A stretch of 8,203 nt of DNA from Bacteroidota bacterium (GTDB taxonomy: Bacteria > Bacteroidota > Bacteroidia > Bacteroidales > F082), in NCBI GenBank assembly GCA_002686705.1, contig NYYH01000047.1, positions 1 to 8,203 on the forward strand, in the 5' to 3' direction. The position numbers and the translations under genes were made by a program. Below, piece by piece: positions 5,165 through 8,203 of this stretch. Position 1 is the first letter of the stretch, and each line of letters starts with the position of its first letter. The notes under the pieces are model-generated. The model searched no databases. It saw only the letters and a program-made list of their open reading frames with translations, and was not told the DNA's origin.

Positions 5165-5626
5165 TCAATCTCGTCCTTTACGTGTAGAATAATTGATTTT
5201 AAGTGCGCCTGCTTTTCGGAGTTCTTGTTTTACATCTGTAACAATTCCCATCTTGGTCAGGCCATCTACTTTAAGGGAGGTTGTTATGAACTTCCTGTCA
5301 GCTTCATCTCTGTCTTCTCTTTCTTTGGCTACAAACTCCTGAATATCTCCAATATTTGCAAACGTGTCATTTAATTGAATTCGAGAATTTGTTCCGTAAA
5401 GTTTTGATTTTACAGGAGGTCCTATGTAAATATAACTAACTAATGATTTCTTGTCAAGCTTTTGAATTTCTGTTGCCTGTGGTAATTTTAACTTCACCTT
5501 AAGAGATACTTCACGCATTACCGTAGTTACCATAAAAAAGAACAGTAACATGAAAATAATATCGGGTAACGACGAAGTATTTATCCCGGGAGATCCCTTT
5601 CCTTTTTTTGTTTTAAATCTCGACAT
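5165..5626 (-). CDS. exbD: ExbD/TolR-family biopolymer transport protein (second copy, exbD2)
   Basis: This 153-residue single-pass inner-membrane protein matches ExbD/TolR in size. A short basic cytoplasmic tail (MSRFKTKKGKG) precedes one transmembrane helix at about 20-36. Asp22 in SLPDIIFMLLFFF sits where E. coli ExbD has its proton-carrying Asp25. The remainder is periplasmic. The protein should form a dimer in the pore of an ExbB pentamer and pass proton-driven motion to a TonB-like partner. It is the last gene of the operon, one nucleotide after the exbD1 stop, and is followed by the intrinsic terminator. Its sequence differs clearly from exbD1 beyond the helix, so the pair may form a heteromer or serve different partners; TolR is an alternative name for either. 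Confidence 0.92.
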   Translation of the reverse strand: MSRFKTKKGKGSPGINTSSLPDIIFMLLFFFMVTTVMREVSLKVKLKLPQATEIQKLDKKSLVSYIYIGPPVKSKLYGTNSRIQLNDTFANIGDIQEFVAKEREDRDEADRKFITTSLKVDGLTKMGIVTDVKQELRKAGALKINYSTRKGRD

Positions 5627-5627
5627 A

Positions 5628-6206
5628 CTAACTGCCTCCTATATCTTCTGGTTCTGCTTCGGAAATACGAACAGGAACTGCTTTATTAATTCCTTTGATT
5701 TTAGTCTTATCAATCAGCTGTTTGTATTTAAGACCAAATAATCTAAGTGACAATTCATCTTTCATCTCATGAAACGCAGCTGCAAGTTCGTTTTGAACAG
5801 CAATATACATATCATACGATGTACCTCTATCGTTTTTCAGTGATATAATACCCTTTGAGGCTTCAATATCAATTCCAAGTTCTTCGATGTACTTAGGCTG
5901 ATATTCTGGATAACTGTCATCATTAGGATGGATGGCCATAAAATCGATTGCTTTTTGTTTTAGCATACTTATGTCGCCAGGTTTACCATCAATAAGAAGA
6001 CGGTTGTGGCTGTTTATAAGAACCTTTAGTACGTTTCGGTCTTTAACAACAATATCATCATCCTGCTCCTCAACCGGTGGAGGTAATTTTCTGGTAATAC
6101 CAGTATCAACATCCATTGTTGTGGTTACGAGGAAAAATATAAGCAGCAGGAAGGCAATATCCGCCATCGAACCAGCATTAATTTCAGGAGCTGCTCTTCT
6201 AGCCAT
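5628..6206 (-). CDS. exbD: ExbD/TolR-family biopolymer transport protein (first copy, exbD1)
   Basis: This 192-residue single-pass inner-membrane protein has the basic start MARRAAPEINAGS and one transmembrane helix at about 14-30. Asp16 in SMADIAFLLLIFFLVTT is the expected protonatable residue of the ExbD/TolR family. Its periplasmic part is longer than in the 140-150-residue relatives: a Pro- and Asp-rich segment (about 41-52), then an inserted polar stretch rich in Asp, Pro and Tyr (about 93-115), then a tail to residue 192. It lies 6 nt after the membrane-protein gene and 1 nt before exbD2, so translation of the operon is probably coupled. Long first ExbD copies of this kind are common in Bacteroidota exb operons. 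The family call is firm; the partner (TonB or a TolA-like protein) is not shown. Confidence 0.92.
   Translation of the reverse strand: MARRAAPEINAGSMADIAFLLLIFFLVTTTMDVDTGITRKLPPPVEEQDDDIVVKDRNVLKVLINSHNRLLIDGKPGDISMLKQKAIDFMAIHPNDDSYPEYQPKYIEELGIDIEASKGIISLKNDRGTSYDMYIAVQNELAAAFHEMKDELSLRLFGLKYKQLIDKTKIKGINKAVPVRISEAEPEDIGGS
5635..5640 (-). promoter_or_regulatory. Shine-Dalgarno-like AGGAGG before exbD2
   Basis: Minus-strand AGGAGG (5640-5635) ends 8 nt before the exbD2 ATG and lies within the last codons of exbD1. It supports the start at 5626. Shine-Dalgarno sites are used little in Bacteroidota, and the motif also encodes part of an Ile-Gly-Gly-Ser tail, so it could be a coding coincidence. 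Confidence 0.4.
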
Positions 6207-6212
6207 ACTTTA

Positions 6213-6629
6213 TTATTTAAAAATTTTACTTATTGATGCATAAAAAATGGCAACGACAGTCAAGCCAAACGTAATATAAGTTGCATACAATCCCATTCCA
6301 ACTAAAGTAGATGTGTGGGCGGTTGTTCTCAATTCTTCCAATTGGTACTCTGTAAATTCATTACCAGCAACTGCATAGGCGATTACAATAACCACAACCA
6401 TTACACCAATGCTAATGAGCATTTTTATAATATTTTGCGGATTTGTAATAAATCCATAAATAGGAGATAAAAACATTACAGCTACACCAATGATAAGCAA
6501 TATTTTTGCCCAGTTGATAAAAGTTCCTGGACTAATCACATTAGTGTAAAACAACACTCCAGGAATCACTGAAAGTGCCAGCAACAGGTACAAAATCCAT
6601 TTTGTTATATTGGCAATATTATCTTTCAT
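6213..6629 (-). CDS. Four-helix membrane protein of the exb operon, function unknown
   Basis: I do not recognise a named family with certainty. The 138-residue product has four predicted transmembrane segments (about 11-28, 39-61, 68-88 and 108-132), short loops, and one polar stretch, GNEFTEYQLEELRTTAHTS (about 89-107), between helices three and four. It begins 5 nt after the exbB stop and ends 6 nt before exbD1, so it is almost certainly cotranscribed with and functionally tied to the proton channel. A small membrane protein in this exact place is a recurring feature of Bacteroidota exbB-exbD-exbD operons. It might be an accessory or assembly subunit of the complex. It has no acidic residue in a helix that would suggest a proton path of its own. 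Confidence 0.85.
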   Translation of the reverse strand: MKDNIANITKWILYLLLALSVIPGVLFYTNVISPGTFINWAKILLIIGVAVMFLSPIYGFITNPQNIIKMLISIGVMVVVIVIAYAVAGNEFTEYQLEELRTTAHTSTLVGMGLYATYITFGLTVVAIFYASISKIFK

Positions 6630-6634
6630 GATTC

Positions 6635-7459
6635 TTATTTTTTACTGAATTGGTTAAGGAGATCAATAAATGCAATTGAACTGTCTTCCATATCGTTAAC
6701 AAGATTCTCAATCTTCGAAATGATATAATTGTAGAAGATTTGGAGGATAATAGCAACAATAAGACCAAACACGGTAGTTAACAAAGCCACTTTAATACCA
6801 TCAGCAACAACAGTAGGTGAAATATCTCCGGCAGCTGCAATATCATCAAATGCTTTGATCATACCTATAACCGTACCCATAAATCCAAGCATCGGCGCCA
6901 GTGCAATAAACAATGAAATCCAGCTTACGCCACTTTCAAGTCTGCCAGTAACAACACTTCCATATGCTATTATAGCTTTTTCAACTTCTCCTAAACCGTC
7001 ATTATAACGATTCAGGCCTTCGCCAAAAATACTAGCCACGGGACCCTTTGTGTCACGCACAACTTCTTTTGCACCATCAATGCCTCCGCTTTCGAGAGCA
7101 GATTCAACGTTTGTCAACAACTTTTTGGTGTTAATTGATGCCATGCTTAAGTAAATAATACGTTCGATACTAATTGCTAAACCAAAGATAAGAGCTAATA
7201 ATACAACGCCCATAAATCCAGGACCACCTTCAATAAACTTTTCCTTTAGGATCTGGTGAAATGATTGTGGTTTATCAGGTTCTGTTGCTATTTCAGCAAC
7301 ATCCTGAGCAATTTCTTCTGCTGGTGTAGTTGAATCTCCAGCAATTGATTCAACAATAGCAGTTGTGTCTTCAGCAACATAATCCTGTGCATAAGAATAG
7401 TTTAACATCGCTGCGGAAGTCATAATAATTAAAGAAAGTAAAGCAATAAATTTTCTCAT
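6635..7459 (-). CDS. exbB: MotA/TolQ/ExbB proton-channel family protein
   Basis: This 274-residue inner-membrane protein is the channel subunit of a proton-driven ExbB-ExbD motor. An N-terminal signal peptide (about 1-24, MRKFIALLSLIIMTSAAML with cleavage likely at SYA-Q) precedes an acidic, Thr/Ala-rich periplasmic segment (about 25-65). Three family helices follow: about 81-104 (GFMGVVLLALIFGLAISIER), 178-200 and 222-246. The core signature is APMLGFMGTVIGMIKAF (188-204), with Thr196 in the pore helix, and VALLTTVFGLIVAI (224-237). The cytoplasmic domain lies between helices one and two (about 105-177). Five copies are expected to surround an ExbD dimer. It is the first gene of the operon, with a promoter about 50 nt upstream and the next gene 5 nt downstream. 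TolQ is the alternative name, but the signal peptide and extended periplasmic N-terminus are typical of Bacteroidota ExbB. Confidence 0.94.
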   Translation of the reverse strand: MRKFIALLSLIIMTSAAMLNYSYAQDYVAEDTTAIVESIAGDSTTPAEEIAQDVAEIATEPDKPQSFHQILKEKFIEGGPGFMGVVLLALIFGLAISIERIIYLSMASINTKKLLTNVESALESGGIDGAKEVVRDTKGPVASIFGEGLNRYNDGLGEVEKAIIAYGSVVTGRLESGVSWISLFIALAPMLGFMGTVIGMIKAFDDIAAAGDISPTVVADGIKVALLTTVFGLIVAIILQIFYNYIISKIENLVNDMEDSSIAFIDLLNQFSKK

Positions 7460-7754: not shown

Positions 7755-7868
7755 GGGATTAATTGCATTGATCCCTGGGGGAAGTACCTGGCATGCATAG
7801 AAACCCAATCCTCTGGTGAGGATTTTGTGTTTTTAATTTTCTTTTCGCATTGACAAACAAGTTTGTCA
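7755..7868 (+). repeat. Structured tandem repeat, copy A
   Basis: This is the first of three copies. Read on the + strand it contains: hairpin 1, GGGATTAAT/ATTGATCCC (7755-7763 with 7767-7775, loop TGC, one T-G pair); a linker with GGCATGCATAG (7790-7800); hairpin 2, AATCCTC/GAGGATT (7807-7813 with 7818-7824, loop TGGT); a T-rich tail (7825-7845); and hairpin 3, a perfect palindrome TGACAAAC-AA-GTTTGTCA (7851-7868). It matches copy B at 84 of 86 positions over 7755-7840 and matches copy C over its whole length with about nine substitutions and one inserted base. I do not recognise a named repeat family. Confidence 0.85.
7807..7840 (+). terminator. Terminator-like hairpin in repeat copy A
   Basis: A perfect 7-bp stem AATCCTC/GAGGATT with loop TGGT is followed by TTGTGTTTTTAATTTT. 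The tail is T-rich only on the + strand side, so if it terminates transcription it acts on + strand transcripts. No promoter for such a transcript is visible. Confidence 0.45.
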
Positions 7869-7895
7869 AAGCAGAAGAAATTGAATCGTTCATTA

Positions 7896-7981
7896 GGGAT
7901 TAATTGCATTGATCCCTGGGGGAAGTACCTGGCATGCATAGAAACCTAATCCTCTGGGGAGGATTTTGTGTTTTTAATTTT
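7896..7981 (+). repeat. Structured tandem repeat, copy B (lacks the third hairpin)
   Basis: The second copy starts 141 nt after copy A and keeps hairpin 1 (7896-7904 with 7908-7916), the GGCATGCATAG linker, hairpin 2 (7948-7954 with 7959-7965, loop TGGG) and the T-rich tail to 7981. Its two differences from copy A are in the linker and the hairpin 2 loop, not in a stem. After 7981 similarity stops: the third hairpin of copies A and C is replaced by an unrelated 22-nt spacer before copy C. Confidence 0.85.
7948..7981 (+). terminator. Terminator-like hairpin in repeat copy B
   Basis: The same stem AATCCTC/GAGGATT as in copy A has loop TGGG instead of TGGT and is followed by the identical T-rich tail. 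The single change lies in the loop, so the stem is intact. A function in termination is inferred from shape only. Confidence 0.45.
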
Positions 7982-8003
7982 AACGTTAGTTTCAAACTTG
8001 ATA

Positions 8004-8117
8004 GGATTAACTGCGTTGATCCCTGAGGGGGAGAACCTGGCATGCATAGAAACCCAATCCTCTGGTGAGGATTTTGTGTTTTTAATTTTCTTTTTGCTTT
8101 GGCAAACGAGTTTGCCA
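8004..8117 (+). repeat. Structured tandem repeat, copy C
   Basis: The third copy starts 107 nt after the matching point of copy B. Hairpin 1 is GGATTAAC/GTTGATCC (8004-8011 with 8015-8022); its inner pair is C-G where copies A and B have T-A. One extra base in the linker near 8025 shifts any reading frame. Hairpin 2 (8056-8062 with 8067-8073) and the T-rich tail are identical to copy A. Hairpin 3 is TGGCAAAC-GA-GTTTGCCA (8100-8117), again perfect, with a G-C pair where copy A has A-T. It ends only about 8 nt before the T tract of the tRNA-Ser terminator. Confidence 0.85.
8056..8089 (+). terminator. Terminator-like hairpin in repeat copy C
   Basis: The 7-bp stem AATCCTC/GAGGATT, loop TGGT and T-rich tail are identical to copy A. 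Its orientation is opposite to the neighbouring tRNA-Ser and exb genes, so it cannot serve as the terminator of either. Confidence 0.45.
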
Positions 8118-8124
8118 CGCTCTA

Positions 8125-8159
8125 GAAAAACAAAAACCCACAACTTCTGTTGTGGGTTT
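8125..8159 (-). terminator. Intrinsic terminator of the tRNA-Ser gene
   Basis: AAACCCACAAC (8134-8144) and GTTGTGGGTTT (8149-8159) form a perfect 11-bp stem with a 4-nt loop. On the minus strand it is followed by TTG and TTTTT (8133-8125). It starts 7 nt after the tRNA 3' end, so it should end the tRNA transcript. Confidence 0.85.
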
Positions 8160-8166
8160 CCTTATG

Positions 8167-8203
8167 CGGAGAGAGCGGGATTCGAACCCGCGGTACACTT
8201 TTG
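8167..8203 (-). tRNA. tRNA-Ser, 3' part only (runs off the window)
   Basis: On the minus strand the sequence gives the 3' half of a variable arm (AAAAGTGTACC), a T-stem and loop GCGGG-TTCGAAT-CCCGC (8191-8175), the 3' acceptor strand TCTCTCC (8174-8168) and discriminator G73 at 8167. A long variable arm with G73 points to serine; leucine and tyrosine tRNAs, which also have long arms, normally have A73. The anticodon is outside the window, so the isoacceptor is unknown. The next bases read CAT, so CCA is not encoded and must be added enzymatically. Confidence 0.85.

Follow-up and report, generated by a model that had tools for sequence, protein, structure and literature searches.

What are the three tandem copies of a structured repeat at the right-hand end of an 8,203-nt stretch of Bacteroidota DNA (hereafter the window), and on which strand does their fold act? 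A unit of 86 nt occurs on the + strand at positions 7755, 7896 and 8004, with identities to copy one of 98% for the second and 80% for the third, and among the 20 of 43 direct-repeat families listed for the window it is by far the longest, the runner-up measuring 25 nt. The sequence GGCATGCATAGAAAC, with up to three mismatches allowed, has three occurrences in the window, a number reached in none of 200 shuffles. The sequence-only reading had described three structured copies at these positions; repeat analysis confirmed them, and their coordinates were checked by eye and by script. Copy A (7755–7869, delimited by repeat analysis, reading of the sequence and the coordinate script) comprises hairpin 1 (7755–7775), a G-run (7777–7781), the linker GGCATGCATAG (7790–7800), hairpin 2 (7807–7824) followed by a T-rich tail, and a central hairpin (7850–7869). 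Copy B (7896–7981) has the first four parts in the same order (7896–7916, 7918–7922, 7931–7941 and 7948–7965), and no central hairpin (hairpin 3) was seen in it. Copy C (8004–8096), which adjoins a tRNA gene, carries them at 8004–8022, 8027–8031, 8039–8049 and 8056–8073. To the left of the repeats, four − strand ORFs (5165–7459) resemble by eye an ExbB/ExbD-like gene set. The array itself has no ORF longer than 78 aa and thus no integrase of its own; a protein-coding role for its small ORFs (65–78 aa, both strands) was rejected, as the aligned copies differ by 1- and 2-nt gaps.

The paired changes reported between the copies were found as described: the inner pair of hairpin 1 is T7763-A7767 in copy A and C8011-G8015 in copy C, the corresponding change in hairpin 3 is from A7853-T7866 to G8102-C8115, and a T-G pair in hairpin 1 is present in all three copies (7760-7770 in A, 8008-8018 in C). 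By itself, a set of two changed pairs in three neighbouring copies is weak evidence. We therefore rely on an alignment of 27 copies, including those of the window, which folds into hairpins 1 and 2. Across its 421 cells, 96.4% are paired, compared with 88.1% in shuffles (s.d. 0.8) and 34–53% when the partners are slid; both partners have changed in 8 of 16 pairs, and covariation scores 0.243, compared with 0.096 in shuffles and 0.045–0.066 in slid controls. The paired fraction, like all five measures used, was reached in none of 500 shuffles; as the copies were picked by similarity and are related, we give more weight to the slid controls and to the nature of the substitutions. Within hairpin 1, the inner pairs vary jointly while the outer GGGATT/TGATCC sequences are almost fixed, and the T-G pair is present in 25 of the 27 rows. 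Covariation of hairpins 1 and 2 thus supports the earlier proposal that the folded form is under selection, and a folded single-stranded DNA could account for it equally as well as an RNA. The repeat also appeared to belong to no named family, and among the 11 Rfam 15 matches to the window up to an E-value of 5 none reached its gathering score; those lying over the repeats (CRISPR-DR21, E-value 4.1; SNORA40, E-value 4.6) were taken as chance.

The repeat unit makes up one half of an imperfect palindrome of ~170 bp; the opposite half consists of the terminator and 3′ end of a tRNA gene. Hairpin 3 of copy C is the middle of this larger palindrome, which is centred at 8097–8119 (no strand assigned) around the core TGGCAAACGAGTTTGCCA (8100–8117) and extends to 8159. 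Its right half, on the − strand, is the tRNA trailer (8120–8165), which contains the terminator hairpin AAACCCACAAC-TTCT-GTTGTGGGTTT (8134–8159, read on the − strand); next to it, cut by the window edge, lies the 3′ portion of a tRNA-Ser gene (8166–8203, − strand). All 38 of its nucleotides are identical to the tRNA-Ser(GGA) region of another locus (L006). ARAGORN called no tRNA gene in the window, which we attribute to the truncation. The interval first drawn around the element (7755–8117) does contain the three copies, and it left outside both the other half of the palindrome (8120–8165) and the tRNA-Ser end. One Rfam match, to the plastid psbL-rps4 3′UTR family (8167–8203, E-value 1.9e-5), falls below gathering and overlies the antisense tRNA-Ser end, its most likely cause.

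Similar elements were found elsewhere in the phylum. A 19-nt piece of the linker matched four places in a one-genome-per-species collection, three of them Bacteroidetes metagenome-assembled contigs with two, two and three tandem copies (L001, L003 and L004); at the fourth (L002) the rest of the unit was absent, and it was taken as chance. The arrays of L003 and L004 both terminate next to a tRNA-Ser(TGA) gene on the opposite strand. A DNA search of 149 genomes of the family gave matches in 25, and tRNA-Ser genes were present in 22 of the 28 loci scanned from it (anticodons TGA, CGA, GCT and GGA; some loci overlap). A covariance model built from the 27 copies matched 62 places, forming 45 clusters, in 29 of 295 genomes of the order, and the same type of search matched 15 of 296 genomes in a phylum sample; under the strict filters used, both genome counts are lower bounds. 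A looser pattern for hairpin 1 matched 36 of 296 phylum genomes, compared with 7 for a reversed control pattern, and a tRNA gene was present in only 9 of the 29 loci scanned, so that many of its three-mismatch matches are probably chance; the arrays among these loci adjoin tRNA-Arg and tRNA-Ser genes. A strict gapped pattern matched 3 of 395 phylum genomes. One further match (L113, genome G726) is a genuine element cut by a contig end. The single control genome outside the phylum had no match (0/1, which shows little), and none was found in plasmid and phage collections.

The viral contigs had no match to the linker 19-mer, and three scans of them with hairpin patterns returned five loci (L140–L144). 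Judged by eye, L140 and L143 have the element beside a cut tRNA-Ser end, at what seems to be the boundary of an integrated element; L141 and L142 resemble phage coding sequence, and L144 is left without an explanation. In one genome (L130, G723), hairpin-1-like repeats occur at a distance from tRNA genes, close to protein genes and small terminators, and may be a scattered cousin of the element. Searches of the literature found no paper matching the element, as was the case for Rfam, and these small, non-coding palindromes of Bacteroidota DNA apparently form a family not described before.

The covariance model contained no tRNA information, and tRNA neighbours were scored afterwards in the 45 clusters. 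An intact tRNA or tmRNA gene lay within 171 bp of 35 clusters, on the right side and antisense in all 35, and no cluster of the 45 had a sense-strand tRNA gene within 400 bp. Among the remaining clusters, two had an antisense T-arm only, three ended at a contig edge and five had no tRNA gene near. In the phylum sample, 12 of the 17 clusters examined (leaving out three from G003, two from G180, and G202:C30) had a convergent tRNA gene within 403 bp, two were at a contig end and three had none. The genes next to the clusters found by the model are those of tRNA-Ser, -Pro, -Val, -Cys and -Met and of tmRNA, with tRNA-Arg in other searches. The element is thus tied to the 3′ ends of tRNA and tmRNA genes in a fixed orientation. 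This context, decisive for the interpretation, had escaped the first reading; the element is not an intergenic repeat that scatters freely.

The complete element runs from hairpin 1, usually GGGATT..TGATCCC, through a few nucleotides, a G-run, an arm, hairpin 2 and a T-rich arm to the central palindrome, followed on the right by a mirror arm, the tRNA terminator, a second mirror arm and the tRNA 3′ end. The G-run is present in most copies and is missing at several tRNA-Arg loci (L076, L078, L080 and L259). In 57 units, kept from 71 loci offered, the distance from hairpin 1 to the antisense T-arm averages 175 nt (s.d. 7.8, range 162–198), a narrow spread that is partly built in by a search window of ~140–215 nt; hairpin 1 is misplaced in four of the units (G589:C12, G629:C105, G724 and L047). 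The distance in the window is also 175 nt. When the same units were used to compare arms, the arms scored a mean of 55.6 against the trailer of their own locus and 29.7 against those of other loci; the own trailer was the best of all in 37 of the 57 units, and at most two others equalled it in 51. The window fits less well than most loci, with an arm score of 40.0 that is reached by 7 of the 56 others.

The original proposal that the fold probably acts as an RNA read from the + strand was not supported as worded, and a + strand RNA is no more than a possibility. This would be a small-RNA gene of ~85 nt that opens with a 5′ hairpin, continues through a conserved single-stranded linker to an intrinsic terminator, is kept convergent to the tRNA gene and has multiplied in tandem. 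Both hairpins covary; in many copies hairpin 2 and the T-runs after it resemble a terminator by eye; taken alone, hairpin 1 has its stabler fold on the + strand in 54 of the 57 units; and the linker CCTGNNCAANCATAGAAACC is conserved within one subgroup. However, the + strand bias of hairpin 1 reflects the single near-invariant T-G position rather than 57 independent facts, other subgroups carry a different linker (L004b; L026–L037), the body favours the opposite strand, and a small RNA leaves unexplained both the position behind tRNA and tmRNA genes and the displaced gene ends described below. We consider such a gene unlikely.

An equally doubtful alternative places the function on the tRNA strand, where the element would be the distal half of a tRNA 3′-end device, its long hairpin and mirrored terminators serving two-way termination and trailer processing and its copies arising by local inverted and tandem duplication without mobility. 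In 49 of the 57 units the stabler fold of the body is that of the tRNA strand, although the body as measured contains the terminator of the tRNA itself; among arm mismatches, 66 are G.T on the tRNA strand, compared with 33 on the + strand and 246 of other kinds; the arms follow the local trailer; and by eye a T-run ends each half on its own strand. Such a device leaves the conserved hairpin 1 and the G-run unexplained, and it fits poorly with the lack of a match in most genomes of the order and phylum samples (lower bounds, as above) and with a common hairpin 1 behind seven kinds of gene (Ser, Pro, Val, Cys, Met, Arg and tmRNA), which suggests spread between loci. Taken as whole units, stability is split 31 to 26 between the strands, and neither bias settles which strand acts, because that of hairpin 1 comes from one position and the body contains the tRNA terminator.

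Signs of insertion were found at the left edge of the element. Hairpin 1 opens with the antisense T-arm sequence of the neighbouring gene, usually GGATT, and by eye variant T-arms are copied as well, such as GAGATT at tRNA-Pro (L100 and L138) and GGAGT at tmRNA (L097). A displaced 3′ end of the neighbouring gene itself, at least 10 nt long, lies directly to the left of hairpin 1 in 21 of 64 loci, about a third, when one mismatch is allowed and up to 40 nt are examined; nine of 73 loci had been dropped for want of an antisense T-arm. Counted by rows, it is present in 24 of 112, which include a few pattern matches inside elements or in the wrong register (L056, G667, G589:C12, G629:C105 and L047) that mostly hide copies. 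In 19 of the 24 rows the end of no other tRNA type matches as long; in the other five one does, because Ser genes share similar ends. The remaining 43 loci, the window among them, have no displaced end of at least 10 nt, although a one-base register error hides some (for example L056 and G667).

At several loci the terminator is displaced too (by eye; L018, L240/L241 and the tmRNA loci L160, L163 and L165). In L160 and L163 the order is tmRNA, element, a copy of the tmRNA end, terminator and tRNA-Arg(ccg); L165 is alike, with a tRNA-Arg that was not called and is recognised by eye only. In L240 and L241 gene end, trailer and terminator are all repeated; their displaced trailer is the element's own trailer, and simple duplication would give the same. 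Some tandem units include the gene end, as in three units of 158 bp that each contain a tRNA-Val end (L133) and in 177-bp units at a tRNA-Ser gene (L077). Short-unit arrays (~105–140 bp), the type seen in the window, do not include this end and must therefore form in a different way.

Comparison of relatives gave variable occupancy. At tRNA-Val(gac) in three genomes of one family, the element is present in three copies in the first, as a body lacking hairpin 1 in the second and not at all in the third (G583). Among 11 genomes searched for tmRNA, seven matches passed the cut-off, of which by eye three have the element with a displaced end and four lack it (L161, L162, L164 and L166). The flanks of these tRNA-Val and tmRNA loci are too little orthologous to be joined, and no strictly orthologous empty site was found in a close relative. 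The genus of G471 has one genome and offers no relative for such a comparison; in that of G013, with five genomes, two sites are filled and have duplicated trailers, one has an element without a displaced end, one has its tRNA gene at a contig edge and one has no match.

We favour the explanation, with a probability of about one half, that the element is a non-autonomous mobile element inserted at the 3′ ends of tRNA and tmRNA genes and that the copies in the window are a tandem array of it. Site-specific insertion would most likely occur at the T-arm of the gene, with the junction after the antisense GGATT. The element would bring a 3′ end and terminator that keep the gene intact, and the old 3′ end would be pushed away and then decay. 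Because the element has no ORF of note, a recombinase or nuclease would have to act in trans, and we infer that this enzyme recognises hairpin 1 as a folded single strand. Tandem copies could arise by repeated insertion or by unequal recombination. The family, its structure, its tie to tRNA and tmRNA genes and the displaced gene ends at a third of loci are shown; mobility, recognition as a single strand, the trans-acting enzyme and decay of the old end are inferences. The five clusters away from any tRNA gene speak against this explanation.

No recombinase tied to the element was found. An ordinary integrase owning it was considered in L140, where a tyrosine-integrase-like ORF (by eye) lies beyond a tRNA gene cut well upstream of the T-arm and not at the element; the element therefore looks native to the tRNA end. 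In genome G180 (contig C41, 57.7–88.1 kb; L089/L090), ~30 kb lie between two copies of a tRNA-Ser end with an element at both edges, and by eye its ORFs resemble a restriction-modification enzyme, a KAP-type NTPase and QueC-like and TatD-like proteins; no integrase was recognised by eye among the ORFs of at least 120 aa.

A further alternative is that the element is a satellite of GIY-YIG homing-type cassettes, which also carry tRNA 3′ ends and are arrayed in tandem behind tRNA genes. An ORF with this domain (PF01541, 4.2e-17) lies in a cassette inside an element array (L077/L091, G202), and at a second locus (L226) the element and a GIY-YIG match lie between three copies of a tRNA-Pro end. 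Genome G202 has 25 PF01541 matches (UvrC-type included), several in tandem behind tRNA genes with partial tRNA copies. However, the two are joined at these two loci only, a motif scan of the loci then collected found the ORF at a single element locus, the hairpin-1 pattern (up to two mismatches) is present in 1 of 20 GIY-YIG stretches (L226), and the cassettes, where readable, duplicate longer pieces of the tRNA. The association is suggestive, and a satellite of this kind seems very improbable. In L226 (G178, 1170–1760), the tRNA-Pro 3′ end stands before the element, before the GIY-YIG match and in the real gene. Elsewhere in G202 and in G174 (L220–L222 and L227), GIY-YIG ORFs form tandem arrays with units of ~365–520 bp, each ORF joined to a partial or near-full tRNA pseudo-copy (Arg, Asp and Val among those read); these have the look of homing-type cassettes by which tRNA 3′ ends are restored.

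Another, improbable reading is a recombination system of its own kind, in which a minimal ORF-less cassette would be joined as a folded single strand to any tRNA or tmRNA T-arm by a trans-acting enzyme, giving integron-like arrays in which GIY-YIG genes would now and then serve as cargo or as drivers. Hairpin 1 and the G-run would then be the recognition end, and the palindromic body would be free to vary. The attC sites of integrons are imperfect palindromes with conserved ends and a variable interior that form tandem arrays at one site and act as a folded single strand. The element shares the palindrome, conserved ends, variable interior and tandem arrangement, and possibly the use of a folded single strand, but its site is a tRNA gene, the attC core boxes were not matched by eye and an integron integrase was not seen.

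Other known systems resemble the element in part. MITEs and other non-autonomous transposable elements are small, non-coding, rich in inverted repeats and mobilised in trans, as the element presumably is. Unlike them, it is tied to tRNA and tmRNA 3′ ends in one orientation, its inverted repeat lies inside the element as a mirror of the tRNA trailer, and the repeat at its ends is the tRNA 3′ end; no cognate transposase is known. The rtT repeats of Escherichia coli tyrT (Rfam RF00391) form tandem arrays of ~180-bp units downstream of a tRNA gene, every unit repeating the tRNA 3′ end, and are alike in length, arrangement and gene end. They belong to another phylum, RF00391 is absent from the Rfam matches of the window up to an E-value of 5, and this family-model search sets the two apart. 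PINSR, a 188-bp repeat of Prevotella intermedia and P. nigrescens with 177–184 intergenic copies per genome, is likewise from Bacteroidota, of similar length and thought to be non-coding; it is set apart by its description, which says that terminal inverted repeats are absent and, in the section concerned, mentions no tie to tRNA genes (PMC4755523). The closest parallel in target is the genomic island inserted in a tRNA or tmRNA gene, for which the Islander account describes a regenerated gene and a displaced fragment (PMC4383910). The element has the same kind of target and, in the third of loci given above, a displaced fragment, and it would likewise restore the 3′ end of the gene. Unlike islands with a tyrosine integrase, the element is ~170 bp long with no ORF of note and no integrase, has an imperfectly palindromic body and a conserved, covarying hairpin, and forms tandem arrays, and in the window it has no displaced fragment.

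Genes for tRNA and tmRNA are classical landing sites of genomic islands. If the preferred explanation is true, an ORF-less palindromic insert of 170 bp that restores the gene end at such a site and accumulates in tandem would show how little DNA integration needs, and would suggest that Bacteroidota possess an undescribed recombinase. Because the hairpin covaries, whether it is recognised as RNA or as folded single-stranded DNA can be tested directly. It would also mean that the tRNA genes of Bacteroidota repeatedly receive new 3′ trailers and terminators.
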